Positions 31,048 to 46,994 of a stretch of 64,000 nucleotides of DNA are shown here, piece by piece; positions within the stretch are counted from its first letter, which is position 1, and each line of letters starts with the position of its first letter. The notes under the pieces are model-generated. The model was not told the DNA's origin, ran no database searches, and saw nothing but the letters and a program-made list of their open reading frames with translations. This stretch comes from an uncultured Burkholderiales bacterium (GTDB taxonomy: Bacteria > Pseudomonadota > Gammaproteobacteria > Burkholderiales > Burkholderiaceae_C): positions 1 through 64,000 of the forward strand of contig CAILYC010000013.1 of the NCBI GenBank assembly GCA_903838355.1, in the 5' to 3' direction. Made by a program: the position numbers and the translations under genes.

Positions 31048-33099
31048 ATGAATCCAACCATGACACCCACACAACCGCGCTACCGAGCTCAACGCTCCAT
31101 CACACCGCTCTTGACAGTTGCATTCTTGGCGAGTGGCTTCATTTCCAGCGTTTGGGCCGCGCCCACCGTTACGCGCTTGACCCCACCGAGCGAACTGTTC
31201 ACCAGTGGACAAGCCGCTCCCCTCATTGCTCGCTTTTTACCAGGGCAACGCTTTGATTTGCAAGCCACCATTGCAGCCGACGATGCCAGCAAAAGCATCA
31301 CTACGGTGCAATTCATGGTTGATCAAAAACCGGTCAAACTCCAAGTCAGCCTCAAAGATTGCAGCTCAGGCTGCTTGCCCAAGATAGCAAAAAATTCGAC
31401 CATCGCCTCGGCCCGTGCCTACAGTATCATGACACCGGGTGTGCACACCCTGAGTGTCAAAGCCGAACAAAGCGACGGACAAAGCGTGCTCGCACAAGGC
31501 AATTTTGAAATCATCCCCCTGAGCGTTGGCGGCCATAAGGTCAAGAACATCATCATCATGCTGGGCGACGGCATGGGTGCAGCACAAAGAACGGCCGCGC
31601 GCATTGTGGGCGGTGGCTATGCCCAGGGTAAAGTCATCACCCCTTTGGCCATGGACACCTTCCCAGTGACGGGCATGGTGAAGACCTCTTCCTTGAATTC
31701 GATCGTCACCGACTCTGCACCGGGGATGTCATCTTACGTCTCGGGCAACAAAAACAACAACAACGAAGAGGGTGTTTTTCCTGACGACACCTTGGACGCT
31801 TTTGACAACCCGCGCATTGAATATTTGAGCGAATATTTGCACCGCACCCAAGGCAAAGCGCTGGGTGTGGTCACCACCGCAGACGTCTTTGATGCGACTC
31901 CGGCGGCCAATGCGGTGCACACCAGCAACCGTGGCGCTGGAACGGGTATTGTTGACCAATTCTTGGACGACCGCGATCTGTCGGGGCTCACCGTTCTCAT
32001 GGGTGGTGGACGCAAATGGTTTTTACCCTCTAGCACGCCTGGTTCTGCACGAAGCGACAAAAGCGACTATGCGTTTTCAAGCACAGACGCTCATACCGCG
32101 CTCATTGCCAAGGCATGGGGTGCGAAGTCCGGCAAACTCGACACGGGACGCGACCTCATTGCAGACTTTCAATCGGCAGGGTTTACCTATGCGCCCACGC
32201 GCAGTGCACTCCAAAGCATGGACGCCGCCCACACCGAGCGTCTTTTGGGACTTTTTGCGTTTTCCAATATGAACGTTGCCTTGGACAAGATCGATGGACG
32301 CCGCGGTCAAGCCTCATCTTTAGGCACAAGGGTTGTGGATGATTTTGGCTTGCCCGATCAACCCATGCTCGACGAAATGACAGACAAAGCCTTGGCGGTA
32401 CTCTCCTCCAAGAAAAATGGCTTTGTTTTAATGGTCGAGGGCGCCTCCATTGACAAGCAAGCTCATAACATGGACACCGAGCGTTGGATTTTGGACACCA
32501 TGGAGTTTGACAAAGCCATTGCACGCGCACAAGACTATGCCAAAAAACACAAAGATACTTTGGTGATTGTGACAGCAGACCACGAGTGCGCTGGAACTGC
32601 CCTGATTGGGGCATCTATGGTCAGCGACGCTCAATTGATAGAACTGGGCAAAGCGGGCGGCGCTGCCAATTTGCGAGACAAGGTGGTTGGGATTTACGCA
32701 GAGGCTGGCTTCCCAAAGTACACCTTGGCCTCAGATGGATACCCCCAAGCGACCAACATCGATCGCCGCTTGTTGGTGGGATATGGCGCCAATCCAGACC
32801 GCAATGAAGACTGGAGAACCAATGATCGTCCAATCCAAGACTCTCAACAACCCTTCATCAAACAAGCACCATTGAATGCTTACCCTGCCAATGCAACCGA
32901 TCGCGATGTTGACGGTAAATTTTTGATCACCGGGCAAGTCCCTGGAAGCGACGCGGTGCACACGGCCACTGATATTCCGCTATCGGCCTTTGGACTTGGG
33001 GCATGGAGCTTTACAGGCGTCATGGACAACACCGATGTGTTCTTTAAAATTGCTCAGTCCGCCGTCGGTGGTGTTGTTTTGCCCACGGGCTTCAAGTAA
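31048..33099 (+). CDS. phoA: alkaline phosphatase
   Basis: 683 residues, longer than E. coli PhoA, with N- and C-terminal additions. The signal peptide ends near SSVWA. Catalytic elements of the alkaline phosphatase superfamily are clear: 'MLGDGMG' with a metal aspartate, 'VTDSAPGMSSYVSG' with the nucleophile serine, 'MVEGASIDKQAHNMD' and 'VTADHEC'. An N-terminal Ig-like part of about 130 residues precedes the catalytic domain. It releases phosphate from organic esters in the periplasm. The frame open from 30949 overlaps the previous gene; ATG 31048 or 31060 leads directly into the signal. A long hairpin follows the stop codon. Confidence 0.9.
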   Translation: MNPTMTPTQPRYRAQRSITPLLTVAFLASGFISSVWAAPTVTRLTPPSELFTSGQAAPLIARFLPGQRFDLQATIAADDASKSITTVQFMVDQKPVKLQVSLKDCSSGCLPKIAKNSTIASARAYSIMTPGVHTLSVKAEQSDGQSVLAQGNFEIIPLSVGGHKVKNIIIMLGDGMGAAQRTAARIVGGGYAQGKVITPLAMDTFPVTGMVKTSSLNSIVTDSAPGMSSYVSGNKNNNNEEGVFPDDTLDAFDNPRIEYLSEYLHRTQGKALGVVTTADVFDATPAANAVHTSNRGAGTGIVDQFLDDRDLSGLTVLMGGGRKWFLPSSTPGSARSDKSDYAFSSTDAHTALIAKAWGAKSGKLDTGRDLIADFQSAGFTYAPTRSALQSMDAAHTERLLGLFAFSNMNVALDKIDGRRGQASSLGTRVVDDFGLPDQPMLDEMTDKALAVLSSKKNGFVLMVEGASIDKQAHNMDTERWILDTMEFDKAIARAQDYAKKHKDTLVIVTADHECAGTALIGASMVSDAQLIELGKAGGAANLRDKVVGIYAEAGFPKYTLASDGYPQATNIDRRLLVGYGANPDRNEDWRTNDRPIQDSQQPFIKQAPLNAYPANATDRDVDGKFLITGQVPGSDAVHTATDIPLSAFGLGAWSFTGVMDNTDVFFKIAQSAVGGVVLPTGFK

Positions 33100-33110
33100 T
33101 ATCACAGCGA

Positions 33111-33143
33111 GTCCGAAAGCTTGGATAAAATAAGCTTTCGGAC
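33111..33143 (+). terminator. perfect 12-bp hairpin after phoA
   Basis: GTCCGAAAGCTT (33111-33122) and AAGCTTTCGGAC (33132-33143) enclose nine bases, starting 12 bases after the phoA stop. No T-tract follows. It marks the border between G/C-rich and A/T-rich DNA. Confidence 0.6.
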
Positions 33144-33213
33144 AGTAAACTCAAAACGGAATGGGTTAACCTAAAACTTTCTCATACGGACGGACTTCAA
33201 TTGAAAACCTTGA

Positions 33214-33372
33214 TGTTCTGGCGGCAACTGCATAGTCAAAGATTTCATCAATGTCATTGAAGCAAACGGCGACTTGTCGCCCATGGCTGAACAAGTCACA
33301 CCCCCAATTGACTGCCCCAACTGCATCGAGTCACGTGGTGAAAGTTGGGTTCAATTGCACGAAAAATATTGA
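33214..33372 (+). pseudogene. possible gene remnant (C-terminal-like reading frame)
   Basis: A frame without a start codon reads C-S-G-G-N-C-I-V-K-D-F-I-N-V-I-E-A-N-G, later C-P-N-C, and ends at TGA 33372. Composition and the paired cysteines look protein-like, but I recognise no family. It may be the tail of a gene cut off at the compositional border. Confidence 0.2.
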
Positions 33373-33383
33373 ACTCAATGATC

Positions 33384-34118
33384 TTAAATGGATGGGATAA
33401 AACCCTCTGACCCAGCTTCAGGCATTGCAGTTTTATAGGCCTTGCGTGATTTGATCCTATTAAACCAATCCAGGACTGGTGGATGCAATTCAAGCAAATG
33501 AAAAAGATCAATCCGGACTAATCTTTGTACAAAAGGTGCAATATCAATATCAGCCAAAGTTAATTGATCTCCACACAGCCACTTTTGATGACTGAGAGCA
33601 TTGTTCATGCGAAGTACCATGTCTTCTAGGATTTTTAGCGATGGAAGTAAATCTTTTTGACTTATCCCTTTTGTAGCCGCCAGCAGCCAACGATCCCTAA
33701 TCTGAATATTCGGTATTTTTTTTATATGTTCTAGGGCTTCCTTCTGATTCATCTTTTTCAGCTCTGGCTGAATGTTCTTCGCAAAGGAAGGCATCTTGAC
33801 TGCTTCAGATGGACCCGATTCAACGTATTGCGACCAAAGTCGTACTTGAGCCCTCAAAAAGGGATCTGATGGCATCAATGGAATCGAGGGATATTTTTCG
33901 TCCAAATACTCATTGATGATTCTAGATTCAGTCAATATCTTGCCTTGATCGATTAAGACAGGCACCATCCCTAGGGGATTGAGGATTAAGAATTCAGGTT
34001 GAAGATGATCAAATTTCCTGAGATTTAAATGATGCCCAGTCCAAGGCAAGCCTTTTTCCTCTAGGCAGAGCCTGACTTTTTGACTACAGGTTGAGTGAAG
34101 ACTATGGTAAAGATTCAT
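33384..34118 (-). CDS. glutathione S-transferase family protein
   Basis: 244 residues. The thioredoxin-like half starts 'MNLYHSLHSTCSQKVRLCLEEKGLPW', with the S/C-T-C-S-Q-K catalytic loop, then 'GMVPVLIDQGKILTESRIINEYLDE' containing the cis-Pro and the E-S glutathione site. The helical half has 'LTLADIDIAPFVQRL', the conserved N-cap motif. It is similar to Beta/Zeta-like GSTs used in ring-opening or dehalogenation, but the reaction is unknown. The base composition is clearly more A/T-rich than upstream genes. It is the last gene of the minus-strand carboxylase cluster, although 360 bases of non-coding DNA separate it from the cupin gene. Confidence 0.87.
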   Translation of the reverse strand: MNLYHSLHSTCSQKVRLCLEEKGLPWTGHHLNLRKFDHLQPEFLILNPLGMVPVLIDQGKILTESRIINEYLDEKYPSIPLMPSDPFLRAQVRLWSQYVESGPSEAVKMPSFAKNIQPELKKMNQKEALEHIKKIPNIQIRDRWLLAATKGISQKDLLPSLKILEDMVLRMNNALSHQKWLCGDQLTLADIDIAPFVQRLVRIDLFHLLELHPPVLDWFNRIKSRKAYKTAMPEAGSEGFIPSI

Positions 34119-34479
34119 GGGTATAACTCGGGCTCAATGGCAATAGATTTTAAAATTTCAGCCCAAACTTTTATGTCAGACACGGTTTGTCATTTCACAA
34201 ACTAAAGCCGACGACGGCAATGAAGTACGCTCACCGTTGAGCAAAACAATTTTAATTGCTTTAAGTCTATTGCCGATCATGACGGAATTCATGGCTATTG
34301 CCTCAAGATAAAAAGCAATCTTTGAAAGGAAAACTTTTTTTACAATACCAATCGAGTAAGAAACTGCCCTTCGCACTTTGTTCTAAAAATTAAAGTCAAA
34401 AATATTAAACAGATGAATCTGTAAAAGTTTGCATAAAAATCAAGGTGATTGTCAAAGTCACCTAACTTTCGACGCCCAT
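34119..34479. other. A/T-rich gene-free region
   Basis: Between the GST and cupin genes. One 66-codon minus-strand frame (34176-34376) shows no recognisable motif and is not called. Nothing else was recognised. Confidence 0.4.
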
Positions 34480-35154
34480 TCAGATGAGGTTTAGGGGGTA
34501 ATCAAGATGCCCTGTTTTGACATAAATGACAGCCCCTTCGGCTTTTGTAAAAGGGGCATGGCGGCTATAACGGGGACTTCTTATCCATGTGCCTTCGGGG
34601 TACGATCCGTGTTCATCGTGAAATACACCTTTTAGAACAAAGATTTCTTCACCACCAGGGTGCACATGGGGATTGAACATGGTGTTTGGATCCCATCGAA
34701 CCAAGGCCGTACCCACTCCGTCAAAATCGTGTAAGGGCATGACAGCTAAACCAGGGACCAGTCCTGGAAACCACTGTGTTGTGTTGGTGTTGATGCGCAC
34801 ACTAGCGCCGTCATCTTTGTGAAATTGCCGCAATTTAACGAACAGGGTACATCCTTTTGTAGAAAAGGGAGAGTGCGCGCTCCGAGGTGGGTTGCGGATG
34901 TAAGTGCCAGTGGGATAAACGCCGTGTTCATCAGCAAACGTCCCTTCAAGGACTAAAATTTCTTCACCCGCATCGTGCGAGTGTTCGGAAAATATTGAAT
35001 GGGGAGCATAACTCACAATGGATGTTGCTTTGGCAATTTCATCACCCACGCGATCAAGGTATTTTCTTTGAACACCAGGAATGGGAGAAGGATTCCAGTC
35101 AATGCTTACAGTATCGATGACTGCTTTTTTTGCGAAGTCAGCATTAATCTTCAT
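34480..35154 (-). CDS. double ChrR-type cupin protein
   Basis: 224 residues made of two tandem ChrR-like (cupin_7) domains. Domain 1 has 'EHSHDAGEEILVLEG' and 'DEHGVYPTGTYIRNPP'. Domain 2 repeats this as 'PHVHPGGEEIFVLKG' and 'DEHGSYPEGTWIRSP'. Both keep the H-x-H...E metal set, so each barrel can probably bind Zn or Fe. The anti-sigma factor ChrR has one such domain behind a zinc finger; here there is no anti-sigma part. Stand-alone bicupins of this kind are often enzymes such as acetylacetone-cleaving dioxygenases, which is one option for this carbonyl-utilisation cluster. It lies downstream of the Bug gene on the same strand. Confidence 0.82.
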   Translation of the reverse strand: MKINADFAKKAVIDTVSIDWNPSPIPGVQRKYLDRVGDEIAKATSIVSYAPHSIFSEHSHDAGEEILVLEGTFADEHGVYPTGTYIRNPPRSAHSPFSTKGCTLFVKLRQFHKDDGASVRINTNTTQWFPGLVPGLAVMPLHDFDGVGTALVRWDPNTMFNPHVHPGGEEIFVLKGVFHDEHGSYPEGTWIRSPRYSRHAPFTKAEGAVIYVKTGHLDYPLNLI

Positions 35155-35466
35155 ATGGTTTTGAAATAGTGAGGTTGACTATGGATATTAGAATTTAGGA
35201 TTTTGGGCTGAAGATTTGGAATCTTCTGCGGTCAATTAAACAGACATTGATGCTTACAAGAGCATTAGATTGGGATAGTTGCGCAGCCCACTTAACGGCA
35301 ATTTTTCCAGCATGCTCAAACCTCAAGTTCAGGCAGCATTTTAATAATAAGCTATCAATCCCAATGTTTGTATAAAAATAAGATGACCAATACAAAAAGT
35401 AACCCATAATCTTGAAAAATATTATAGGTGTTAATTAATAGGGCCTTGGACGAATCCGGATTCCTG
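35155..35466. other. gene-free region between cupin and Bug genes
   Basis: A minus-strand frame at 35195-35407 ends with a protein-like stretch around 'KIAVKWAAQLSQSNALVSIN', but it has no ribosome site or known family. It may be the decayed end of a gene. Nothing else was recognised. Confidence 0.35.
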
Positions 35467-36486
35467 TTAATTGCTCGGTCGATTAAATCCAGCAGCTTTA
35501 ACCGCATCCAAGTAACCCGCTTGCTCGGACTTAATCAACGCTACCATCTGTTCTGGCGTGGTGGTCAGCGAGTCAACGCCCAACCGGGTCAGCGTCTCGA
35601 TGACTCTGGGATCTTTGGACTGGTCTTGAATTGCAGTCGAGAGAATATCGATAATAGCTTTAGGCGTCTTGGCTGGCGCCAATGTACCTTGCCACGCGGT
35701 CAATTCAAAATTAGGATAAAACTCAGATACTGTGGGGACCTCTGGGATTTGTTTCATTCTTTGAGCACTTGAAACAGCCAATATTTTGATGCGTGGATTT
35801 TTTACATAGCCCATCACATCACCAGAGTTACCAAACATCATGGGAATTTGTCCACCCAATAAATCTTGCATCACTGCCCCACCACCTTTGTAGGGTATAT
35901 GAACAATATCTATTCCAACTTTTGCTCCAAATAAAGCACCCACCAAATGGGCCACTGAACCTGTTCCCGACGATCCATAGCTAATTTTGCCTGGATTGGC
36001 TTTGGCGTAGGCAATGAATTCAGTGATGTTCTTGGCAGGAACTTCAGCATTGATCGCCAAAACCATATCACCTCGCCCAGATGCGCTCACAGTGGCCAAG
36101 TCTTCCAGTTTGTAATTGACTTTCTCTGTCATGGGGACACTGGTCATCTGCGCAGAAGAAGCAAAAAGCAGAGTGTAGCCATCAGGCGCGGCGTGAATCA
36201 CAAACTCTGTGGCAATGGTGCCCGTTCCACCTGGCATATTCCTAACAAGGACGGGCTGTCCAAGTCTGGGCGTCAAAGCAGAGGCAAGCAGGCGTGCTTG
36301 ATTGTCCACCGTACCACCCGTGCTATAAGGCAACACTAGCGTGATGGGTTTATTGGGATACGCAATGCTTTGAGCCCAAAGCGATGATGCCCCCCATGCC
36401 CCTAAGGCGAAAGATGCACCTGCAAGCCATCTCCAAATCACAAATGACTTCTTGCCTTGACCATTCAGAAAGTGAAAATATTTCAT
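35467..36486 (-). CDS. Bug/TctC family periplasmic receptor (6)
   Basis: 339 residues with a signal peptide ending near SSLWAQS. Family marks: 'YPNKPITLVLPYSTGGTVDNQAR', 'PDGYTLLFASSAQ', 'HIPYKGGGAVMQDLLGGQI', 'EVPTVSEFYPNFEL'. The first loop reads STGGTVD instead of PGGGTD. It lies 64 bases downstream of the DUF35 gene on the same strand and probably imports the substrate of the carboxylase/CoA-transferase pathway. No membrane partner genes are nearby. Confidence 0.9.
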   Translation of the reverse strand: MKYFHFLNGQGKKSFVIWRWLAGASFALGAWGASSLWAQSIAYPNKPITLVLPYSTGGTVDNQARLLASALTPRLGQPVLVRNMPGGTGTIATEFVIHAAPDGYTLLFASSAQMTSVPMTEKVNYKLEDLATVSASGRGDMVLAINAEVPAKNITEFIAYAKANPGKISYGSSGTGSVAHLVGALFGAKVGIDIVHIPYKGGGAVMQDLLGGQIPMMFGNSGDVMGYVKNPRIKILAVSSAQRMKQIPEVPTVSEFYPNFELTAWQGTLAPAKTPKAIIDILSTAIQDQSKDPRVIETLTRLGVDSLTTTPEQMVALIKSEQAGYLDAVKAAGFNRPSN

Positions 36487-36550
36487 GTCAAACCCTCGTT
36501 TTAAAACTGAATTTCTACGAAATCATACTGATCAAGGACCCAATCTGCGC

Positions 36551-36976
36551 TCATACGAGCGTAAATTTAGGGACCCCCAACGCCTTTTGTTCATCTGACT
36601 CTTGTACAACGACATCAAACAAACACCTCACCCGTTGCCCAATGAACAACGATTGAACATCAAACTCGACCAAATTGCTCATCAAGCGCACACCTTCGTC
36701 CAATTCAATGATGGCAATCACATAAGGCAAGTCCGCTTTGAAAGCAGGGTCTGGCGCACGATGCACCACAGTAAACGTGGCAATGACCCCTTCCCCTTTG
36801 GACTGCCGCCACTCCATGTCCATGCTAGAGCAATCGCAAATCCTTCGCGTAGGCGCATGATTCTTTGAACACCGCATGCATCTCAGTATCATCAATTTGC
36901 CTTGAGCACAACCTTCCCAAAGTGACTTGGTCCAAGAAGTGGGTTGTGCGACAGGTTTTGCTATTTCACTCATCAA
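36551..36976 (-). CDS. DUF35 Zn-ribbon/OB-fold partner protein
   Basis: 141 residues of the DUF35 (acyl-CoA-associated OB-fold) family. The N-terminal rubredoxin-like zinc ribbon shows C-M-R-C followed by C-D-C, and the OB part has 'GEGVIATFTVVHRAPDPAFKADLPYVIAIIELDEGVRLMSNLV'. Such proteins bind acyl-CoA and form complexes with thiolase-fold enzymes, for example ChsH2 with Ltp2, or BbsA with BbsB. Here it lies only six bases after the thiolase-fold gene, so the same complex is expected. Confidence 0.88.
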   Translation of the reverse strand: MMSEIAKPVAQPTSWTKSLWEGCAQGKLMILRCMRCSKNHAPTRRICDCSSMDMEWRQSKGEGVIATFTVVHRAPDPAFKADLPYVIAIIELDEGVRLMSNLVEFDVQSLFIGQRVRCLFDVVVQESDEQKALGVPKFTLV

Positions 36977-36982
36977 GATGCC

Positions 36983-38146
36983 CTAAACTGATAAAATAAG
37001 GGTACAGGCTGCGACCATCGGGCCGCCAATGCCGTGAGCCAAGCTCAATTTCACACCAGGAACTTGGTTTACACCTGCATCTCCCCGCGCTTGTCGAATC
37101 GCTTCAGGCAGTACCACAATGTGCGCATTCCCCCAAGTCATCATTCCACCACTGGTGTTGGTGGGCATCGACCCATCAATTCCAGTCTGACCCGACGCAA
37201 AGAGGTCAGCCCCTTTTCCAAGCTCACAAAGACCCAACTCTTCCAATGCCACAATCGCAGCAATGCTGAAGGCATCAAACACTTGTGCGACGTCAATATC
37301 CTTGGGACTCACACCAGCCATCTCAAAAGCGCGAATGGCGCTCATGCGAGTGGCGAGGGGTGGGAGTTGAACATTTTCATGCAAATGGTAAGGCGAGTGA
37401 CCCTCTCCCGCCCCCATGAGGCGAACAGGGGTTTGACGCATGTCACGCGATCTCTCTTTTGTGGTCACAATGACTGCGCCACCCCAATCAAAAACAGGAC
37501 AACAATCAATCGCATGCAGTGGTGACGAAATCATGGGAGAGGCCAAAACTTGCTCTATGCTTAGGGGCTCTTTTTTGGGGGCCAAAGGCTGACGCATGGC
37601 GTGATTTCGTGCTGCCACGGCAACGCTCGCCAAGTCCTTGGAAGTCTTGCCGTGGCGGTACATCCAGGCCTGAGCAATCAAGGCATATTTGGCCGGCACC
37701 GTCAGACCAAAAGGATCTTCAAAATCATCTGTCCACGGTCTGGCTGCACGCATGGCTTGAATTTTATCGCCCTTGAATTTTGTACCCCTTGAATCGCTTT
37801 CACACACCAAAACTGTATGCGCCTCGCCAGCAGCAATGGCCTTTGCTGCGTGCATTACTGCAATACAAGGTGAGGCACCCGCATTTTGGATGGAGGTTGT
37901 GAGTCTTAAATTCAAATTCAGCGCCTCAGCCACCAGTGCGCTAAAAACAAAATGCGGATCGGCTGAAGGACTTGCAGTGATCACGCCGTCAATGTCTTGG
38001 TTAGTGATGCCCGCATCCGCCATTGCATTCATGGCGGCCTCAACGGCCAAGTCCTTGGCGGACCTGGTGAGTGGAGAGAAGGTCTGAGCCTCTCCCACAC
38101 CAACGATGGCGACTTGTTCGTAAGGATTGTGGTTGGGTGTGGTCAT
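36983..38146 (-). CDS. thiolase-fold protein (SCP2/Ltp2-like) without the usual nucleophilic cysteine
   Basis: 387 residues of the non-specific lipid-transfer/SCP2-thiolase branch. 'VAIVGVGEAQTFSP' opens the first lobe. The segment that carries the reactive cysteine in true thiolases (C-A-S-G) reads G90-A-S-P93. The nearby Cys94 is shifted by four positions. 'PTNTSGGMMTWGN' and 'SLAHGIGGPMVAAC' are the C-terminal motifs, with the histidine kept. Loss of the cysteine is known in Ltp2-type proteins, which perform retro-aldol cleavage with a DUF35 partner; the DUF35 gene is directly downstream. So a carbon-carbon lyase is more likely than a thiolase. The carboxyltransferase gene is 23 bases upstream. 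Confidence 0.85.
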   Translation of the reverse strand: MTTPNHNPYEQVAIVGVGEAQTFSPLTRSAKDLAVEAAMNAMADAGITNQDIDGVITASPSADPHFVFSALVAEALNLNLRLTTSIQNAGASPCIAVMHAAKAIAAGEAHTVLVCESDSRGTKFKGDKIQAMRAARPWTDDFEDPFGLTVPAKYALIAQAWMYRHGKTSKDLASVAVAARNHAMRQPLAPKKEPLSIEQVLASPMISSPLHAIDCCPVFDWGGAVIVTTKERSRDMRQTPVRLMGAGEGHSPYHLHENVQLPPLATRMSAIRAFEMAGVSPKDIDVAQVFDAFSIAAIVALEELGLCELGKGADLFASGQTGIDGSMPTNTSGGMMTWGNAHIVVLPEAIRQARGDAGVNQVPGVKLSLAHGIGGPMVAACTLILSV

Positions 38147-38169
38147 ATGATCAAGATCGACAGGATCCC

Positions 38170-39621
38170 TCAGCGCAGCGTTATATTAAATCCAGGCTTG
38201 CTGATATGTACCGAATTGCCTTTGGCAGCCTTGGACAAATGGGTCAACACGTCTTTAAGGGTTAAAGCAGCGCCGTCATAGCGCTTGAAGGTGCCATTAA
38301 GGGCTCTCATGCGATCAATGTCCTCGCGCCGCATCAAATAGCGAAACAGAAAATCCTCATCGCTCAGGCCCTTGGCGTTGAGATCCGCCCTTAACTCATC
38401 CTCATTTCGAACCAAGAAACGTTCCTTAGACAACTCTTTTGCCCGCACAGAACTCAAAATCTTTTCCCTCACAACCGGATTCATATCAACTTCTACATTG
38501 CCGCCAAATTGACCCAATGCAAAACGAATGGATTGATCGGTAACTTGCTCATAGCGCTTTCCCGTCATTACATTCACCGCCGCTTGACTGCCCACGAACT
38601 GCGATAAAGGGGTCACCATGATCGGGTAGCCAAAATCGGCGCGTACTTGAACTGCCTCCTCTAGGGCCTGAGGTAATTTATCCTCCGCACCCACTTCCTT
38701 TAGTTGATTACGCAAGTTCGAAATCATCCCCCCAGGCACTTGGTGAATGTACTGGGAATAATCATATTCAACTGGACGACCGATTGGGAGTTTTTCATGC
38801 ATGGCGATGCGGGTGAAATGCGCCTCAACGGGCTTGAGTCGGGTCAAATCAATGTCAACAGCAAATCCCAAATGGCGCAAATTGGAAGTGACATTAAAGA
38901 TGGAGGGCAAAGACGCATCATCGGCCAAGGGTGGAATGGCTGTGTTGACGATTCGAATACCGTGCTTGACCGCTTCCAGCACGCACAAAGGCCCCAGACC
39001 CGTTGAGCAATGGGTGTGAAGCTCAATCTCTAATCCCTTGGCTTTGGACATCATCAAGGGGACCAATTCGCGCACGCGCTCGGGCGTCAAAAGACCACCG
39101 GGGTCTTTAAGGCACAGGCGAAATGGCTTTAATTTCGCCGCTTCTTGTGTACATTTCACATAATAGTCAGTGGTGTGATTGGGAGAAATTGAATAGGTAA
39201 TGTTGATAATGGGCTTGACCCCATGTTTGCTTGCCGCTTGAGCTCGAATCTTCCAAACCTTGGGGTTGTTCCAAGAATCCGATATGCGCACTTCGTCAAT
39301 GCCGCAGGATTTCATGATGCGCCAAAATAAATCCAGCATGACCGGTTGATCAGTGCCAAAAACATTCAAACCCCCGACATTTGCACGAAGCTCAGTTTTT
39401 TTTGCTAGTCCCTTTAAGAGTCGAATCCTTTGGAAGGGATCCTCTTTCAGTTCACGAACACATTTGACTAAAAAGGACGGTGACAAGACCTCTAGGGCTT
39501 CAAAACCCGCGTCATCCAAATCCTTCATCACTGGCAACATCATGCCGGTGGTCATGCGCTCAGCCCACAAGCTTTGATGCCCATCGCGCAGTGTGACATC
39601 AACCATTCGAACCTTTTCCAT
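38170..39621 (-). CDS. HMGL/OadA-type biotin-dependent carboxyltransferase subunit
   Basis: 483 residues from ATG 39621, with AGAGGA upstream. The TIM-barrel domain (about 1-265) is of the pyruvate carboxylase/oxaloacetate decarboxylase type. Metal-site residues are present: D13 in LRDGHQS, K172 in CLKDPGG (the carbamylated lysine in homologues), H202 and H204 in LHTHCSTG. The PYC_OADA domain follows, with 'HQVPGGMISNLRNQL' and 'YPIMVTPLSQFVGSQA'. The segment R-G-x-N-x-x-G-Y that holds the 2-oxo acid arginine in pyruvate carboxylases reads G-G-L-N-V-F-G-T (residues 83-90), so the substrate is probably not pyruvate. It transfers CO2 from the biotin carrier encoded upstream. There is no biotin domain of its own. 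Confidence 0.88.
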   Translation of the reverse strand: MEKVRMVDVTLRDGHQSLWAERMTTGMMLPVMKDLDDAGFEALEVLSPSFLVKCVRELKEDPFQRIRLLKGLAKKTELRANVGGLNVFGTDQPVMLDLFWRIMKSCGIDEVRISDSWNNPKVWKIRAQAASKHGVKPIINITYSISPNHTTDYYVKCTQEAAKLKPFRLCLKDPGGLLTPERVRELVPLMMSKAKGLEIELHTHCSTGLGPLCVLEAVKHGIRIVNTAIPPLADDASLPSIFNVTSNLRHLGFAVDIDLTRLKPVEAHFTRIAMHEKLPIGRPVEYDYSQYIHQVPGGMISNLRNQLKEVGAEDKLPQALEEAVQVRADFGYPIMVTPLSQFVGSQAAVNVMTGKRYEQVTDQSIRFALGQFGGNVEVDMNPVVREKILSSVRAKELSKERFLVRNEDELRADLNAKGLSDEDFLFRYLMRREDIDRMRALNGTFKRYDGAALTLKDVLTHLSKAAKGNSVHISKPGFNITLR

Positions 39622-39667
39622 GAAATCCTCTGAAAAATTTAACTTTAATTTCTTGAACAGCGCATCT

Positions 39668-41086
39668 TTAATCGCTGCGCGTTTGGTCAAGCATCTCTTT
39701 AATGAGCTGCTCGACCAATACCGTATTAACTTGCCCGCTTTCAAACCGCTCATGATTCATGGCAAACGACAAAAAGGGCAAGGTCGTCCCAATTCCTTCA
39801 ACCTCAAAGCGCTTAAGCGCATTTTTCATGCGTCGAATCGCCTCTGCGCGATTAGCGCCATAAACAATCAACTTGGCCAGCATCGAGTCGTAATAAATGG
39901 GCACCTCATAGCCCTCAAAGCAATGGGTATCCAAGCGAATATTGGGGCCTTGAGGAGGCTTCCAAATCGTGATGCGACCAGGACTGGGGCGAAAGCCCTC
40001 CAGGGGCAACTCTGCGTTGATGCGGCACTCAATGGCATGGCCTCTAAAAACGATGTCTTCTTGCTTGAACGGTAAGACCTCGCCCGCGGCAATTTTGAGT
40101 TGTAACTCAACAATATCTATACCTGTGATGGCCTCCGAGACGGGGTGCTCGACTTGCACTCGGGTATTCATTTCCAAGAAGTAATACTTTTGCGTATCCC
40201 CATCTAAAATAAATTCAACGGTACCCGCGCTTTGGTAATTTAAAACTCTCGCAAGCTCAATGGCACTTCGACGCATGCCTTCCCTTGCACTGGCCACCAA
40301 GTTGGGCGCTGGAGACTCCTCCACCACCTTTTGATGACGCCTCTGTAGCGAGCAGTCTCTCTCACCCAAATGGATCAAATGACCGTGCTGATCTCCCAAG
40401 ACTTGAACCTCAACGTGGCGGGCATTGGGAATGTATTTTTCCAAGTAAAGGGTATCGTCTCCAAAGGCATTTCTTGACTCTGCACTCGCTGAAGTAAATA
40501 GAGACACCAACTCATGCTCATGGCTCACAATTTTCATACCCCGACCACCCCCCCCCGCTGCGGCTTTGAGCATCACAGGATAGCCAATGGCACTGGCCAA
40601 CGCCTGCGCATGAGATGCGTCGCGAAGTTTTTCTGAACCGCTGAGCATGGGAACACCGGACTCTTGGGCAAGGATGCGAGCTTGCAACTTATTACCCATG
40701 CGGTGAATTTGATCTGGCGTTGGCCCTACAAAAACAATGCCGTGGTCAGAACAGGCTTGCGCCAGGGCTTGCGATTCAGCCAAGAAGCCGTAGCCTGGAT
40801 GCAAGGCTTGACATTGCGTTTCAAGCGCTGCGGTGATCAAGGCAGGTATGTTCAAATAGCTCAAACTGGATGCAGATGCGCCAATGCACACAGTGCGATC
40901 TGCCAATCGGGCGCCGCGTGTTAAGCGGTCAGCCTCTGACACGACTAAGACACTCTCAAGCCCCAGCGATTGACAAGCAAAGATAATTCTCACGGCAATT
41001 TCACCGCGATTGGCCACCAAAACGCGTTGAATATCAACTTGATTGGGCGACTTTTGCTGGCGAGCCAAGGATTGAGGTCTACTCAT
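39668..41086 (-). CDS. biotin carboxylase subunit
   Basis: 472 residues of the AccC/PycA type; carboxylates carrier-bound biotin with ATP and bicarbonate. Motifs are complete: 'VLVANRGEIAVRI', 'HPGYGFLAE', the glycine-rich ATP lid 'KAAAGGGGRGMK', 'HVEVQVLGD', 'ERDCSLQRRHQKVVEESP', 'EMNTRVQVEHPVSE' and 'AIECRINAE'. ATG 41086 was preferred over an upstream GTG at 41113. It sits between the carrier and the carboxyltransferase genes. A housekeeping accBC pair would not be linked to these partners, so it serves this pathway. Confidence 0.93.
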   Translation of the reverse strand: MSRPQSLARQQKSPNQVDIQRVLVANRGEIAVRIIFACQSLGLESVLVVSEADRLTRGARLADRTVCIGASASSLSYLNIPALITAALETQCQALHPGYGFLAESQALAQACSDHGIVFVGPTPDQIHRMGNKLQARILAQESGVPMLSGSEKLRDASHAQALASAIGYPVMLKAAAGGGGRGMKIVSHEHELVSLFTSASAESRNAFGDDTLYLEKYIPNARHVEVQVLGDQHGHLIHLGERDCSLQRRHQKVVEESPAPNLVASAREGMRRSAIELARVLNYQSAGTVEFILDGDTQKYYFLEMNTRVQVEHPVSEAITGIDIVELQLKIAAGEVLPFKQEDIVFRGHAIECRINAELPLEGFRPSPGRITIWKPPQGPNIRLDTHCFEGYEVPIYYDSMLAKLIVYGANRAEAIRRMKNALKRFEVEGIGTTLPFLSFAMNHERFESGQVNTVLVEQLIKEMLDQTRSD

Positions 41087-41149
41087 GAGTGATTTTATTG
41101 ATGGAGCGAGCACTTGAGACTCAACGAAGGGGAAAAATCGTGTTGATGT

Positions 41150-41662
41150 TCACATCTTGGGTTTGAGATGAAAAAGGGGTTGACCGTACTCAACCAAATC
41201 ACCATCTTTGACGCAAATTTGGGTGATCACTCCCACCAAACCTGCGGACACGGCATTGAACATCTTCATGGCTTCAATCAAACCCACCGTTGTACCTGCA
41301 CTTACATCGCTGCCAATGCTCACAAAAGTCTCCGCTCCAGGCTCCGATTGGGAATAAAAGCGACCGATCATGGGACTAGTGATGATGTTCTCACCTGCAG
41401 ACACGACCAAGGTATCGGGTTGAGCCTGAGGCTCATGAGCAAGCGCTGTCTCTGGTTGATTGTGCCCTGGGCTGATAGGGCTTGACGAAGAGGTTGTGGG
41501 TATCAATGCTGGCGCAGACAGGGTTTCACCCTTGTCAATCTTGATTCTCAAATCTCCCAGGGTAAAATCCAAATGGGTGAGGCCCGAGTCGTTGAAAGAC
41601 TCTATGATGGAAATGATGTTGTCGATTTCACTGCTTAGTAAGGGAATGGTGTCTTGACTCAC
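41150..41662 (-). CDS. biotin carboxyl carrier protein
   Basis: 170 residues. The AccB-like N-terminal helix region (1-45) is followed by a Ser/Pro/Gln-rich hinge (about 46-88) and a biotinyl domain. The biotin-attachment motif is E130-A-M-K133-M, in the expected hairpin with 'SPMIGRFYSQSEPGAETFVSIG' before it. The start is GTG at 41662 with AGGAT upstream. It carries the activated CO2 between the biotin carboxylase and the carboxyltransferase. It lies in the same minus-strand run as both. Confidence 0.92.
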   Translation of the reverse strand: MSQDTIPLLSSEIDNIISIIESFNDSGLTHLDFTLGDLRIKIDKGETLSAPALIPTTSSSSPISPGHNQPETALAHEPQAQPDTLVVSAGENIITSPMIGRFYSQSEPGAETFVSIGSDVSAGTTVGLIEAMKMFNAVSAGLVGVITQICVKDGDLVEYGQPLFHLKPKM

Positions 41663-41688
41663 TTAAAGATCCTATTGGGTAAATGACT

Positions 41689-42384
41689 TTATGATTGGTA
41701 GAGTAATGCTCCGTTAATGACACGCTCGGGTATGACCATTTCGTAACACTGTGGAGAGACACTCAATAGAGCGTCAGTTTTGTCTTGAATACTGTGCGGA
41801 TCAAATCCTGGCATGAAAGCCTCCAAGACCAAGCCTGAGGGCGTAACATTGATGATGGCCATATCCGTGTAAATCCGTTTGACACACGCCTTGGCCGTCA
41901 GTGGAGCCGAGCAATTTTTGACAACCTTGGGCTGCCCCTTGTTGGTGAGGTGAGACATGGCGACAATGATGTTGGGAGAACCAACAGCCAAGTCCATCGC
42001 GCCTCCCACACCAGGAACCGCTTCACCGGGCACCTTCCAGTTGGCAAAGTCCCCGTTTTCAGCAACCTCAATGGCACCCAAGACTGCATGCGTCAAGTGC
42101 CCGCCTCGCATCATGACAAAAGAGGTTTGTTGATCAAAGAGGCTGGCTCCCAATTGAAGTGTACAAAACCCTTTACCCGCACTGATCAAGTCCAGATCAA
42201 TGTCTGCGACTTTGGGCTTGGGACCAACACCCAATATTCCATTTTCACTGTGCAAAAAAATCTCAAGTTGAGGATCCAAGTAGTTGGCCACCAAGACAGG
42301 AATGCCAACCCCTAAATTCACATAGCTGCCTTCTTTTAAATCTTGAGCAATCCGCCAAGCAATTCCGTCACGGGTCAAAATCAT
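41689..42384 (-). CDS. 3-oxoacid CoA-transferase subunit B
   Basis: 231 residues of family I CoA-transferases. The catalytic glutamate lies in the conserved 'HSENGILGVGP' motif, with 'YVNLGVGIPVLVANY' before it and 'GGHLTHAVLGAIEV' and 'GVGGAMDLAVG' after. The start ATG overlaps the stop of the A subunit (ATGA). The pair moves CoA from succinyl- or acetyl-CoA to an acid such as acetoacetate or 3-oxoadipate. In this cluster the acceptor would be the product of the biotin-dependent carboxylase. Confidence 0.93.
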   Translation of the reverse strand: MILTRDGIAWRIAQDLKEGSYVNLGVGIPVLVANYLDPQLEIFLHSENGILGVGPKPKVADIDLDLISAGKGFCTLQLGASLFDQQTSFVMMRGGHLTHAVLGAIEVAENGDFANWKVPGEAVPGVGGAMDLAVGSPNIIVAMSHLTNKGQPKVVKNCSAPLTAKACVKRIYTDMAIINVTPSGLVLEAFMPGFDPHSIQDKTDALLSVSPQCYEMVIPERVINGALLYQS

Positions 42385-43109
42385 TTCCCCCCCCCTTCTT
42401 TGGGAAGGACCAAGAGTTCGGGCAAGCGATCAACCTCAATCAACTGATCCACAAAAATCCCTTGGGTGTGAACATCATCGGGCTTGATTTCGCCCGCCTC
42501 CACCATTTTATCGACCTCTGCAATGACCACATTGCCAGCGGTCGCCATGACCACATTGAAGTTACGCATAGTGCCCTTGTAATTTAAATTACCCAAACGA
42601 TCCCCTAAATGGGCGCGAATCATGGCGAAATCAGCCTTCAATGCCTTTTCAAGAACGTAATCTTTGCCGTCGATGTTTTTGATTTCTTTGCCAATAGTGA
42701 GCTCGGTGCCAACACCGGTAGGCGTATAAAAGCCACCCAGACCACATCCCCCAGCTCGTATACGCTCCACCAAGGTTCCTTGGGGAACGAGTTCAAGTTC
42801 AACCTCCCCCTTTAAATATTTGTCTCTAAAGTCAGCTGCAGTAGGTGCGGGAAAGGACGCAATTAACTTTTTGACCAATCCATCCGCAAAAAGTCCTCCC
42901 AAAGCGAAACCACCCGTACCAGCGCCATTGCTGATGATGGTCAAATTCTTAACAGCCCTGCGCCTGAGAGCCTCAATCAACTGCCCAGGCATTCCGGCAT
43001 TGCCAAAGCCACCCAGCATAATGCTGGCGCCATCAAAAATCGACTCCACAGCTTCGGCACAACTCACAACACGCTTATCGATCAATTCACCACTCCAAAA
43101 CAAACTCAA
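42381..43109 (-). CDS. 3-oxoacid CoA-transferase subunit A
   Basis: 242 residues of the family I CoA-transferase alpha subunit. 'IMLGGFGNAGMPGQLIEALRRR' holds the G-G-F-G-x-x-G-x-P motif that binds CoA. 'NLTIISNGAGTGGFALGGLFADG' and 'FYTPTGVGTELTIGKE' are typical. The start appears to be TTG at 43109; no ATG or GTG lies in frame between it and an upstream stop codon. It is the first gene of the carboxylase operon and overlaps subunit B by four bases. The A/T-rich region before it should carry the promoter. Confidence 0.9.
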   Translation of the reverse strand: MSLFWSGELIDKRVVSCAEAVESIFDGASIMLGGFGNAGMPGQLIEALRRRAVKNLTIISNGAGTGGFALGGLFADGLVKKLIASFPAPTAADFRDKYLKGEVELELVPQGTLVERIRAGGCGLGGFYTPTGVGTELTIGKEIKNIDGKDYVLEKALKADFAMIRAHLGDRLGNLNYKGTMRNFNVVMATAGNVVIAEVDKMVEAGEIKPDDVHTQGIFVDQLIEVDRLPELLVLPKEGGGK

Positions 43110-43443
43110 ATCACCAGAAATTAGGGTTATATTTGAATCTAATTTAAGCGCTTACACCATAGGGCAAGCCCTTGATGTCTCCTGCACCAATGACCGCAAC
43201 GCAAGTTCACGTCAGTTTGATCTAGCTCAAAACCAAGGACACATCAGTGTGCTCAATCAGTTCTATACGAGATACTGCCGCGCCCCCTACAAAGAACTGC
43301 AAGACAATTTAAATATAAAGTCTTCGGGAGGTACTTGAGCGCTAAACTTGGCACCAATGGAGTCGAAATACAGATGACATTGAAGCCTACAGTCAGGTTT
43401 TGTTCAACTTGGAAAATCATTCCCATCCGAGTAATAAAAATAA
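43110..43443. other. putative promoter region of the carboxylase operon
   Basis: 334 bases without a convincing gene. It holds a 10-bp palindrome TAAGCGCTTA at 43145-43154, AGGGC-AA-GCCCT just after it, and TTGATCTAGCTCAA at 43217-43230, one base off the FNR/ANR consensus. A plus-strand frame entering from the CoA-transferase gene is an antisense shadow. Confidence 0.4.
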
Positions 43444-44469
43444 CTATTCTTCAGGAATAAATCCGGAGTCTTTGACAATATTTCCCCAACGAATCAAATC
43501 AGATTTTAATAATGCCGAAGTGTTTTCTGGAGTACTCAAAATAGGATCACTTCCCTGTTTAGCAAAAGATTCCCTCAAAGAAGGTAACTTTAGGGCTTCA
43601 TTGACCAAAGCTGACGTTTTTAAAACAATACTCCTCGGTGTGTTTGCTGGCATGAATAAGCCAAGCCATGGCTCGCACACCAAGTCGCTGTAACCCAACT
43701 CAACCATCGTTGGTACATCTGGCAAAAATCGACTTCGTTTTAGCCCTGTTGTTGCAATCGCTCTAAGTCGAGAGGTGCTCAATCGTGGCAGAGTTTCACC
43801 CAGCGAACTAAAAATACTGGCAACTTGCCCGCCCATCACATCAACCAACGCGGGCGCATTGCCCTTATAGGGAACATGGAGTAGCGGATAATTCGCAGCT
43901 TTAGCAAACATGACCCCCGTAAAGTGAGGAGCAGCACCTGCACCACTCGAAGCGTAAGCAGCGAGGCCAGGATTTAATTTACACCATGCAATGAATTCCC
44001 CTGGCGTCTTGACGCTTTCGGGCACACTAGGGCCAACACAAAATACCAATGGACTTGAATTGACAATTGAAACAGGGCTGAAATCTGCGATGGGATCGTA
44101 GTTAATCTTCTTAAAACTGTAAGGTGCTAAGGTTAGTGAAAAATCTGGTGTAAAAAGAATTGTTGAGCCATCAGGTGGGCTATTTTTAACGTATTCAACT
44201 GCAAGACGTGATGCTGCTCCGGGCTTTGCTTCAATAATGAGACCACCCGGATAGGAATCGTTCATGCCTTGAACCAACGGACGCAAAGCTGAATCAACTC
44301 CGCCGCCCGGAGGAAATCCGATGATCATGCGAGTCAATTTTACATTCTGAGCGAAAACACTATTGAATGAAGTCTCGCAAGCTAGAAGACCAATCGAATT
44401 GATGATGGCTCGACGATTAATGTTTGACACTGATGTCTCCTTGGATTTTGACTGACTCGTTTCAAGCAA
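43444..44469 (-). CDS. Bug/TctC family periplasmic receptor (7), Tat-like signal
   Basis: 341 residues. The N-terminus has a twin arginine (NINRRAIINSIG) before a weakly hydrophobic stretch that ends near SVFAQN, so Tat export is possible, which is unusual for this family. Receptor marks: 'RMIIGFPPGGGVDSALRP', 'PPDGSTILFTPDFS', 'HVPYKGNAPALVDVMGGQV', 'DVPTMVELGYSDLV'. It lies 334 bases upstream of the CoA-transferase genes on the same strand and may be part of the same substrate-use island. Confidence 0.9.
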   Translation of the reverse strand: MLETSQSKSKETSVSNINRRAIINSIGLLACETSFNSVFAQNVKLTRMIIGFPPGGGVDSALRPLVQGMNDSYPGGLIIEAKPGAASRLAVEYVKNSPPDGSTILFTPDFSLTLAPYSFKKINYDPIADFSPVSIVNSSPLVFCVGPSVPESVKTPGEFIAWCKLNPGLAAYASSGAGAAPHFTGVMFAKAANYPLLHVPYKGNAPALVDVMGGQVASIFSSLGETLPRLSTSRLRAIATTGLKRSRFLPDVPTMVELGYSDLVCEPWLGLFMPANTPRSIVLKTSALVNEALKLPSLRESFAKQGSDPILSTPENTSALLKSDLIRWGNIVKDSGFIPEE

Positions 44470-44705
44470 GACATTTGGGAAACCGATGTTGATCCAAGCT
44501 CGCTTGAACCAAGGCGACTGTACAGATCCACGCTATTAAAATAAACGATGAGAGATTCATCATAAAATTATTATTTTTAATCGAAATGACTTGTTGATAT
44601 ATAAGGGTAAACATTTAGTAGAGCTCAATTTTCAATAAAAACAGAACTTAAATCTTTGAACCACCCCTTGGGCTTCAATTTGAAACACCTATAGAAATAT
44701 TTACT

Positions 44706-45353
44706 TTATTGGGTAACTTTTTCTCTGCAAAAAAATACGACCATCATTAAAACGGCCACAAGCTCAGCAACCACAAACCCAAGGACATCTTGCGGGGCTA
44801 TACCCACAAAGGTGTTGGTCAAACTTCTAGCAACGACTACAGCAGGGTTGGCAAAGAATGTTGACGATGTAAACCAATACCCTGCTGTGACGGTCATGGC
44901 CAGCAACATTGGTATTTTGTCCTTGGATGCTGTATCACCCATTCTAATAACCGCCAACAAAACCAAGGTCGATAGAAATTCACTCACCCAAATTCCAGGG
45001 CCATTTCTGGCCTTACTTGACTCTTGAATGATCGGTAAACTGAACATGAAGTGCGTGAGCCATATTCCGCAAACTGCTCCGGCAAATTGGCAAACCCAGT
45101 ATCCGAGCATCGTCTTAACACTCAAGTGGCCCAATCTCCAACTCATCAAACTCACCGCCGGGTTAAAGTGAGCCCCTGAAATAGGCCCCAACAAGACAAT
45201 CAATACATAAAGGCCTGCGCCAGTTGCAATACTATTGCCAAGCAAAGCAACAGCACCATTTCCAGCGCCGAGGGTCTCACCCATCAACCCTGAACCCGCT
45301 ACAATTGCCAAGAGCAAAGTGGTACCGACAAATTCAGAAACGTAATTTTTCAT
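44706..45353 (-). CDS. aqpS: aquaglyceroporin of arsenic clusters (AqpS-like)
   Basis: 215 residues of the MIP family with six membrane segments and two half-helices. The first NPA box is 'GAHFNPAVS'. The second is 'FANPAVVVARSLTNTFVGI', with the V-A-R-S selectivity-filter region that resembles AqpS of Sinorhizobium meliloti. In such clusters the channel lets arsenite leave the cell after ArsC has reduced arsenate. The start overlaps the arsC stop (ATGA), which ties it to arsenic resistance. No ArsB or Acr3 pump is present here. Confidence 0.88.
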   Translation of the reverse strand: MKNYVSEFVGTTLLLAIVAGSGLMGETLGAGNGAVALLGNSIATGAGLYVLIVLLGPISGAHFNPAVSLMSWRLGHLSVKTMLGYWVCQFAGAVCGIWLTHFMFSLPIIQESSKARNGPGIWVSEFLSTLVLLAVIRMGDTASKDKIPMLLAMTVTAGYWFTSSTFFANPAVVVARSLTNTFVGIAPQDVLGFVVAELVAVLMMVVFFCREKVTQ

Positions 45354-45829
45354 TTTTGAGTGTGAATATCTTTAAGCGTCATTGAATCCAATTTGTCCAA
45401 CGGCATTTGAGCCAATAAATCAATCCTTTTTTTCAATCCATACAAGACCTCCGTGAAGGCATGCCTTTTTTCTGCTTCAGTGCCTTTAACTTGCGATGGA
45501 TCAGGAAATCCCCAGTGTGCCGTTATGGGTTGACCTGGCCAGTAGGGACAGGCTTCGCCAGCAGCTTCATCGCAGACAGTGATAATGAAATCCATCTTTG
45601 GGGCATCAGGCAAAGCGTACTCATCCCAATTCTTACTTCTAAGTTTACTTTGGTCGTAGCCAAGCTCTTTGGTGAGCTCTGCAGCAATAGGATTGACCGC
45701 AGCACCAGGCGCTGAGCCCGCTGAATAACCCGTAAAAATGCCGCTGTAATGGGTGGACGCCAAGGCTTCACCCAACACAGATCTGGAAGAGTTGTGGGTG
45801 CATAGAAATAAAATGTTGTATTTCTTCAT
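45350..45829 (-). CDS. arsC: arsenate reductase (low-molecular-weight phosphatase type)
   Basis: 159 residues. The P-loop C10-T-H-N-S-S-R16 matches C-x5-R of thioredoxin-coupled ArsC. The redox pair C86 (VCDEA) and C94 (EACPYWPG) completes the three-cysteine relay. It reduces arsenate to arsenite in the cytoplasm. ATG 45829 overlaps the arsR stop (ATGA). The longer frame to 45883 lies inside arsR. It is the middle gene of arsR-arsC-aqpS. Confidence 0.95.
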   Translation of the reverse strand: MKKYNILFLCTHNSSRSVLGEALASTHYSGIFTGYSAGSAPGAAVNPIAAELTKELGYDQSKLRSKNWDEYALPDAPKMDFIITVCDEAAGEACPYWPGQPITAHWGFPDPSQVKGTEAEKRHAFTEVLYGLKKRIDLLAQMPLDKLDSMTLKDIHTQK

Positions 45830-46155
45830 TTGCTTTTGTCCTTTTTGATGACTTGAGTTGGTAAACAAGATTTCCCGCCACAACAGTTATCCAAAAGAAA
45901 CTCGCTGAGTTTTTGAATCAACAAGGCGTTTGGTCGGTAAATGAGGTTTCTACTTTGGCGCTCGACCTTCAACAAATTGGCACTCATCAACTCCTTTAAG
46001 TGAAAACTCAATGTGGCGTTGGGGATACCGAGATGCTCAATGATCTCTGAAGGTGTCAAGCCCACATCGCCTTTTTGTACAATGAGACGAAAAACATTGA
46101 GTCGAGATTCTTGCCCTAAGGCCATAAAAGCGAGGATGGCATCTGAATTTTTCAT
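45826..46155 (-). CDS. arsR: ArsR family metalloregulator
   Basis: 109 residues with a winged helix-turn-helix ('LTPSEIIEHLGIPNATLSFHLKELMSANLL'). There is no ELCVCDL metal motif in the DNA-binding helix. Instead the C-terminus has C91-C92-G-G-K-S-C97, a cysteine cluster suited to bind As(III). It should repress its own operon and the divergent arsH until arsenite binds. An inverted repeat covers its start codon. It overlaps arsC by four bases. Confidence 0.93.
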   Translation of the reverse strand: MKNSDAILAFMALGQESRLNVFRLIVQKGDVGLTPSEIIEHLGIPNATLSFHLKELMSANLLKVERQSRNLIYRPNALLIQKLSEFLLDNCCGGKSCLPTQVIKKDKSK

Positions 46156-46177
46156 ATTTCTATAATATCAGAAATAT
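46154..46177. promoter_or_regulatory. ArsR-type operator between arsR and arsH
   Basis: ATATTTC (46154-46160) and GAAATAT (46171-46177) form 7-bp arms around a 10-base A/T-rich centre. It touches the arsR start codon and lies in the 103-base divergent region, the expected place for autoregulation. Confidence 0.6.
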
Positions 46178-46258
46178 AAAATCAATCATGAAGGTTTTAT
46201 TACAATCCAAGAAGCTCCAAAGTATTGAGCCCAATCTCTTTTTTATTGAGAACACCTG

Positions 46259-46969: not shown

Positions 46970-46973
46970 TCAT

Positions 46974-46994
46974 GAAAGATAAATTCTTTCTTTT
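46974..46994 (+). terminator. weak terminator after arsH
   Basis: GAAAGA-TAAAT-TCTTTC forms a six-base stem five bases after the arsH stop and is followed by TTTT. The stem is A/T-rich and weak. Confidence 0.4.

Follow-up and report, generated by a model that had tools for sequence, protein, structure and literature searches.

Why would a biotin-dependent carboxylase be encoded together with a CoA-transferase and a thiolase-fold protein that lacks the thiolase cysteine? The question is raised by a run of ten genes, all on the minus strand (33384-43109), in a 64,000-nucleotide stretch of contig CAILYC010000013.1 from an uncultured Burkholderiales bacterium (hereafter the window). A first-pass annotation had placed each of the ten in a protein family, and all of these placements are borne out. 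It had also proposed that a carbonyl compound is carboxylated to a 3-oxo acid, activated with CoA and then cleaved; with the linkage conserved and the carboxyltransferase outside PycB/OadA, this is still the best reading, and we hold with moderate confidence that the run is a catabolic operon leading from a carbonyl compound through a 3-oxo acid and its CoA ester to cleavage by the thiolase-fold protein and its partner. The genes, upstream of a bicupin and a glutathione S-transferase (GST), are:

42381..43109, minus strand: CoA-transferase A, of the 3-oxoacid CoA-transferase family (TIGR02429, 289 bits, cut-off 128.5)
41689..42384, minus strand: CoA-transferase B (TIGR02428, 272.7 bits, cut-off 243.55), with the SENG motif
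41150..41662, minus strand: biotin carboxyl carrier protein, BCCP (PF00364; TIGR00531, 116.9, cut-off 115.2), with EAMKM
39668..41113, minus strand: biotin carboxylase, BC (PF00289, PF02786, PF02785)
38170..39624, minus strand: carboxyltransferase, CT, of the RDGxQSLW family (PF02436 and PF00682; placed by a tree)
36983..38146, minus strand: thiolase-fold protein, THI, without the nucleophilic Cys (PF22691; closest solved chain 4u4e_A)
36551..36973, minus strand: DUF35/ChsH2-type OB-fold protein, OB, the likely partner of THI (PF01796; alignment; start codon)
35467..36486, minus strand: Bug/TctC receptor (PF03401; best-hit test)

The core of this run is found elsewhere. CoA-transferases A and B, BCCP, BC, CT, THI and OB recur at 39-77% identity in other genomes, in the same order. 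The full set is found in four genomes (G012, G242, G181, G300), all from one other family of Burkholderiales, and part of it in a second family. This recurrence, the check that the first-pass annotation had called for, makes the linkage more than chance; it does not extend to the bicupin and GST, which are not conserved with the module. Intergenic gaps of -4 to 64 bp join CoA-transferase A (43109) to Bug (35467), including 6 bp between THI and OB (9 bp counted from the OB ATG); the bicupin lies 312 bp beyond this tight part and the GST another 361 bp on. The ATGA overlap of CoA-transferases A and B is the only one of those reported for the run to stand. Although the CT frame opens at 39753, homology places its start codon at 39624 (ATG).

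How widely is the arrangement distributed? A CT match at E<=0.001 is present in 137 of 300 genomes sampled from the order, and beyond the window's own genome six (G012, G272, G242, G181, G180, G212) reach at least 63% identity, the next standing at 49%. A match at E<=1e-40 occurs in 5 of the 200 genomes searched from the family to which the window belongs (its own genome included), none of the others above 38%, and that search returned no match in the other two genomes of the genus. At E<=1e-72, a class-wide search found matches in 4 of 369 genomes, again with its own included. The operon is thus sporadic, as would be expected of an acquired catabolic island. In family f11, 29 of 98 genomes show CT matches at E<=1e-72. 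Within the window clade of CTs, comprising 12 loci from 11 genomes, the core order is complete in L047, L049, L050 and L130; contig ends truncate L048, L060 and L111; in L051, a CoA-transferase, BC and CT are followed at a distance by a carrier gene, and THI/OB are absent; L112 and L113 have a CoA-transferase and CT only; L114 has a CoA-transferase, CT and THI; and L115 is a fragment.

What kind of carboxyltransferase is this? In a tree of 110 sequences, 87 CTs with RDGxQSLW or close variants split from 23 PycB/OadA sequences with a support of 0.97 on a branch of 0.86, and the 12 members of the window clade group with a support of 1.0; from the PycB/OadA split inwards the node supports are 0.97, 0.96 and 0.72, and several inner nodes are weak. 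Clustering with PycB/OadA, which the first-pass annotation had named as a test of its proposal, is therefore not seen. CTs of hpe-type clusters (L042, L043, L046, L073), about 33-37% identical to the window CT, are nested within the RDGxQSLW family; the tree left out HpeB, XccC, 5S and CfiA, with the hpe-type cluster L042 of R. leguminosarum (dikinase halves, phosphatase, CoA ligase, amidohydrolase) and its relatives as proxies. The window CT also falls below every NCBIfam equivalog cut-off (PRK09282, 330.8 against 402; oadA, 311.7 against 756.5). Judged by sequence, then, it is not a PycB/OadA and groups with the CTs of hpe-type clusters.

The window CT shares with PycB, OadA and 5S the fold and the metal/lysine motifs (HTHCSTG, LKDPGG and VTPLSQFVG), and differs from them in its neighbours, in its clade apart from PycB/OadA (5S lying outside the tree) and in the LRGQN arginine, which is out of place. 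The arginine of LRGQN belongs to the residues that bind pyruvate in pyruvate carboxylase; in an alignment with PycB, OadA and 5S chains the window CT has VGGLN for LRGQN, in a loop two residues shorter, and the arginine is, on this alignment, displaced or lost. The earlier claim of a missing pyruvate arginine holds to that extent. However, 11 of the 12 clade CTs (the twelfth being the L115 fragment) share an Arg slightly before this position, in LRxN, which weakens the argument, and the substrate may still be a carboxylate. Across the family, a group of 15 CTs and several others retain the LRGQN arginine, which is out of place in the window clade and many more.

Apart from this arginine, the CT, BC, BCCP and CoA-transferase motifs are present. 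BCCP carries its EAMKM biotinylation motif at residue 130, BC has the ATP-grasp motifs, and CoA-transferase B has SENG at residue 46, whose Glu is the catalytic Glu of CoA-transferases; the roles assigned to these motifs, as to the metal/lysine motifs of the CT, are general knowledge. With both subunits above curated cut-offs and SENG in B, the pair is a class I 3-oxoacid CoA-transferase; the closest solved chain to A is a succinyl-CoA:3-ketoacid CoA-transferase A, and 62-75% identical matches to A adjoin the CT in the window clade. The two other biotin-carboxylase-type genes of the genome (88% complete) are only 49% and 47% identical to the operon BC, which is thus a separate copy.

If the enzyme is a carboxylase, what does it make? 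We compared the neighbourhoods, within 8 kb of the CT, of 60 CT loci, taken in order of CT similarity, and of 17 named loci (11 on plasmids and 6 from Bacillota, one of which is, by its taxon, not independent of others), using as queries the window genes and genes from some of the tested loci, with 20 PycB/OadA loci and 20 arbitrary loci of related genomes as controls. A possible beta-keto-cleaving enzyme (thiolase-fold/OB, citrate-synthase-like, BKACE or amidohydrolase) was matched in 8/12 window-clade, 16/48 other and 12/17 named loci with self-matches counted, and in 7/12, 16/48 and 8/17 without them, that is, in 31/77 against 0/20 PycB/OadA and 1/20 arbitrary loci (Fisher p 2.5e-4 and 2.6e-3, values that are too optimistic because the loci are related). 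Class I CoA-transferases lie near the CT in 9/12, 4/48 and 3/17 loci, against 0/40 control loci. Similar pairings occur in unrelated bacteria. In Cnuibacter, a CT-BCCP-BC run occurs with CoA-transferases A and B and a thiolase that has its Cys; in Lysinibacillus, a CT of this family occurs with a class I CoA-transferase, a Cys thiolase and a thioesterase. That several non-homologous cleaving enzymes stand beside one CT family is our main argument that its product would be a beta-keto acid.

Such a carboxylase has a precedent. Lignin-derived ketones are already known to undergo biotin-dependent carboxylation, and the earlier view of ketone carboxylases as having no relation to biotin enzymes no longer holds: PMC9618137 describes HpeCBA, a demonstrated biotin-dependent ketone carboxylase that converts 4-phospho-acetophenones to beta-keto acids, and its homologues XccBCA (about 50% identical to HpeCBA) and AcvCDE. 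The window resembles these in its three genes (carrier, BC and pyruvate carboxylase-type CT), the CT being placed in their RDGxQSLW family through the hpe-type cluster proxies, and would resemble them in its chemistry, in which a ketone becomes a beta-keto acid and is then activated with CoA and cleaved (PMC9618137). It differs in having a CoA-transferase for the CoA ligase, THI-OB for the proposed beta-ketoacyl-CoA hydrolase, and no kinase or phosphatase; no dikinase or phosphatase gene of the kind expected for a phosphorylated substrate lies in the run, which is therefore not the Hpe pathway itself. A kinase-free system would not be odd, since hpe-type kinase and carboxylase genes are clustered in only 52/836 cases (PMC13101465). 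The acetone and acetophenone carboxylases (Acx, Apc) also carboxylate ketones, as we propose for the window, and are biotin-independent (PMC5214803), with unrelated subunits; the acidity argument in that paper makes acetone or butanone an unlikely substrate of a biotin enzyme.

The sequences themselves show which genes are present, that their order is conserved, where the proteins fall among known families, which motifs are lost and that cleaving enzymes are linked to the CTs; from this we infer each reaction, the order of the steps and the kind of substrate. BC and BCCP would charge biotin with CO2, consuming ATP; the CT would transfer the carboxyl group onto a carbon adjacent to a carbonyl to form a 3-oxo acid; the CoA-transferase pair would place CoA on this acid, with succinyl-CoA the probable donor; and THI-OB would split the 3-oxoacyl-CoA into acetyl-CoA (or another acyl-CoA) and an acid. 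This last step may proceed by attack of water on the 3-oxo group and an aldolase-like collapse rather than by thiolysis, a hydrolytic route that we favour because the thiolase Cys is missing and because hydrolysis is the cleavage proposed for HpeF (PMC9618137). Levulinate, which would yield 3-oxoadipate, is one candidate substrate; our literature search found no paper combining levulinate, 3-oxoadipate and carboxylation.

The Bug receptor may offer a further hint about the substrate. Bug proteins bind mostly carboxylates. Nearness of Bug genes in general (10/12 window-clade, 30/48 other and 0/17 named loci, against 0/20 PycB/OadA and 8/20 arbitrary loci) was dropped as evidence because the related genomes are rich in TctC genes, from 32 to at least 97 per genome in 12 genomes, most having at least 97. 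A best-hit test was used instead, with the window Bug as query at E<=1e-95 in 10 other genomes: the best match adjoins the cluster in six (G012, G181, G180, G212, G300, G242), G180 having a second match elsewhere, and lies on another contig in G272 and G884, where the CT contig ends at BCCP. With these two set aside, the receptor stands beside the cluster in 6/8 genomes. Its conservation with the operon suggests a substrate that is a carboxylate or derived from one.

Does THI still cleave anything? The missing thiolase cysteine is confirmed, with GASP where thiolases have CASG, and in all 8 aligned window-clade copies both the nucleophilic Cys and the His of GHP are absent. The steroid side-chain aldolases Ltp2-ChsH2 and Sal-Shy likewise combine a thiolase-fold protein that lacks the Cys with a DUF35 partner, and a Tyr-to-Phe change in Sal abolishes activity (PMC12329534). 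THI differs from these too: FDAF stands in place of the YDHF of Ltp2 and the YDCY of Sal, so that the Tyr of Y-D-[HC]-[FY] is Phe in 8/8 copies, the position of the second Tyr of Ltp2 (Tyr344) is Asn by a hand count on the alignment, and the module is without a MaoC hydratase. GASP, FDAF and GNAH are common to the 8 copies, and the Cys4 finger of OB is spaced one residue more tightly than usual. THI orthologues occur in 5/11 genomes of family f13. We found no published description of this arrangement with a Cys-less, Tyr-less cleaving enzyme.

These residues leave room for other readings. CoA transfer might come first, on a carboxylate delivered by Bug, with THI-OB acting as an aldolase on a 3-hydroxyacyl-CoA and the carboxylase on the ketone released. 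THI-type proteins near other CTs do keep the Tyr (YDAF or YDSF, and Sal's own YDCY in L122), and near CTs of sister groups lie citrate-synthase-like proteins, some members of whose family catalyse aldol-type steps; the uniform Phe of the window clade and a module that conserves no hydratase or dehydrogenase (an SDR gene occurs in 1/12 clade loci, L111) make this order of events unlikely. We are somewhat more doubtful that THI-OB is a non-catalytic scaffold binding CoA esters, with cleavage by a thiolase elsewhere in the genome: thiolase and aldolase residues are both lost and some relatives have no THI/OB beside the CT, yet THI (65-69% identical within the window clade) is about as conserved as CT (59-69%), OB being less so (40-50%), and the local motifs GEGH, GNAH and AHG[IA]GG are kept in 8/8 copies. 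An ordinary pyruvate carboxylase or oxaloacetate decarboxylase alpha subunit among chance neighbours is highly improbable given the equivalog cut-offs, the separate clade and the 0/20 PycB/OadA control loci with CoA-transferase, THI/OB or Bug neighbours, even though, among solved structures, the CT is closest to the beta subunit of a pyruvate carboxylase (239 bits) and the conserved nearby Arg could still bind a carboxylate.

Several observations weigh against carboxylation followed by CoA transfer and cleavage as well. With the Cys and His of thiolases and the Tyr essential in Sal all absent, THI might be inactive or have another role. Window-clade CTs occur with CoA-transferases A and B and no adjoining THI/OB in G180, G904 and G905, and the latter two have no Bug match at E<=1e-95 on CT contigs that cover that side. 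The 12 clade loci are closely related, so their counts are not independent; the list of cleaving families was drawn up after the loci had been inspected, and 32/48 of the other loci show no listed cleaving enzyme. CoA-activating genes of all kinds show no clear excess over arbitrary loci (32/77 against 7/20, with 0/20 at PycB/OadA loci). Finally, the characterised relatives act on phosphorylated aromatic ketones, whereas Bug proteins mostly bind carboxylates.

Could the operon be one outlet of something larger? Genomes G904, G905, G906 and G907 (drafts, 80-97% complete) have 9, 9, 16 and 10 CT matches at E<=1e-45, 44 in all; some matches are partial, so that 9-16 per genome is an upper bound, and one in G904 is only 34% identical. 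Each of the four has three biotin-carboxylase matches at E<=1e-60, one of them window-type (63-66%; partial in G906). Among the 31 CTs in their fetched loci (L091-L101, L104, L106, L110, L112-L116, L118-L121, L124, L129), 4 have a BC within 6 kb, one of these AccC-like (49%), and 5 have a carrier gene nearby. This suggests that one biotin carboxylase may serve many transferases, much as mycobacterial acyl-CoA carboxylases share alpha subunits. We speculate, as a possibility that we regard as doubtful, that a dedicated BC works with interchangeable CTs, each partnered by a receptor, a CoA-activating enzyme and a beta-keto-cleaving enzyme of its own, to convert many carbonyls to 3-oxo acids, and that in the window THI-OB cleaves the 3-oxoacyl-CoA by a new Cys-free, Tyr-free mechanism. 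If so, biotin-dependent ketone carboxylation would extend from a few lignin phenols to a wide range of carbonyls, the Cys-less thiolase/DUF35 pairs beside these CTs and one group of orphan Bug proteins would gain a function, and CTs with altered pockets could be of use in CO2-fixing biocatalysis.

Other CT loci have further gene combinations. In L036-L040 (Peribacillus, Bacillus, Oceanobacillus), a related carboxylase occurs with BKACE and a thioesterase, and L036-L038 add an FAD monooxygenase, a gentisate dioxygenase-like bicupin and an FAA hydrolase, which together might handle a 3-hydroxyphenyl ketone. Two Rhodococcus plasmids (L045, L067) carry an Hpe-like run of dikinase, BCCP, BC, CT, OB, Cys thiolase and tyrosine-type phosphatase. 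Sister CTs in L041, L051, L119, L120, L124 and L127 have citrate-synthase-like proteins nearby (that of L041, annotated as citryl-CoA lyase, is about 9 kb from the CT), perhaps another solution to cleavage; all of these loci except L127 have CaiB-type CoA-transferases. On the Caballeronia plasmid pNK84 (L044), a related CT-BCCP-BC run is accompanied by a carbonic anhydrase, a biotin-synthesis aminotransferase and, upstream, an annotated acetoacetate decarboxylase with no Pfam match at E<=1e-5.

The window bicupin went unmatched in related CT loci at the thresholds applied. The one solved relative found for it is 3o14, deposited under the name of an anti-sigma factor, ChrR; in Cnuibacter, a gene annotated as belonging to the 2,4'-dihydroxyacetophenone dioxygenase family lies close to the CT. 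Relatives of the GST occur beside one CT (L101, 30%), in L129 (25%) and in an arbitrary locus (L171, 37%). Scans for promoters (12 found, 14.7 expected, a chance level) and terminator-like sites (24 against 14.0) were not used as evidence. GC content is 0.42-0.46 at 33000-36000 and 43000-47000, against 0.48-0.53 over most of the operon. A second TctC gene lies 334 bp upstream of the run, and genes for an aquaporin, a low-molecular-weight phosphatase-type (arsenate reductase-like) protein, an ArsR-type regulator and an FMN reductase at 44706-46969 likely form an arsenic resistance cluster adjoining the operon.

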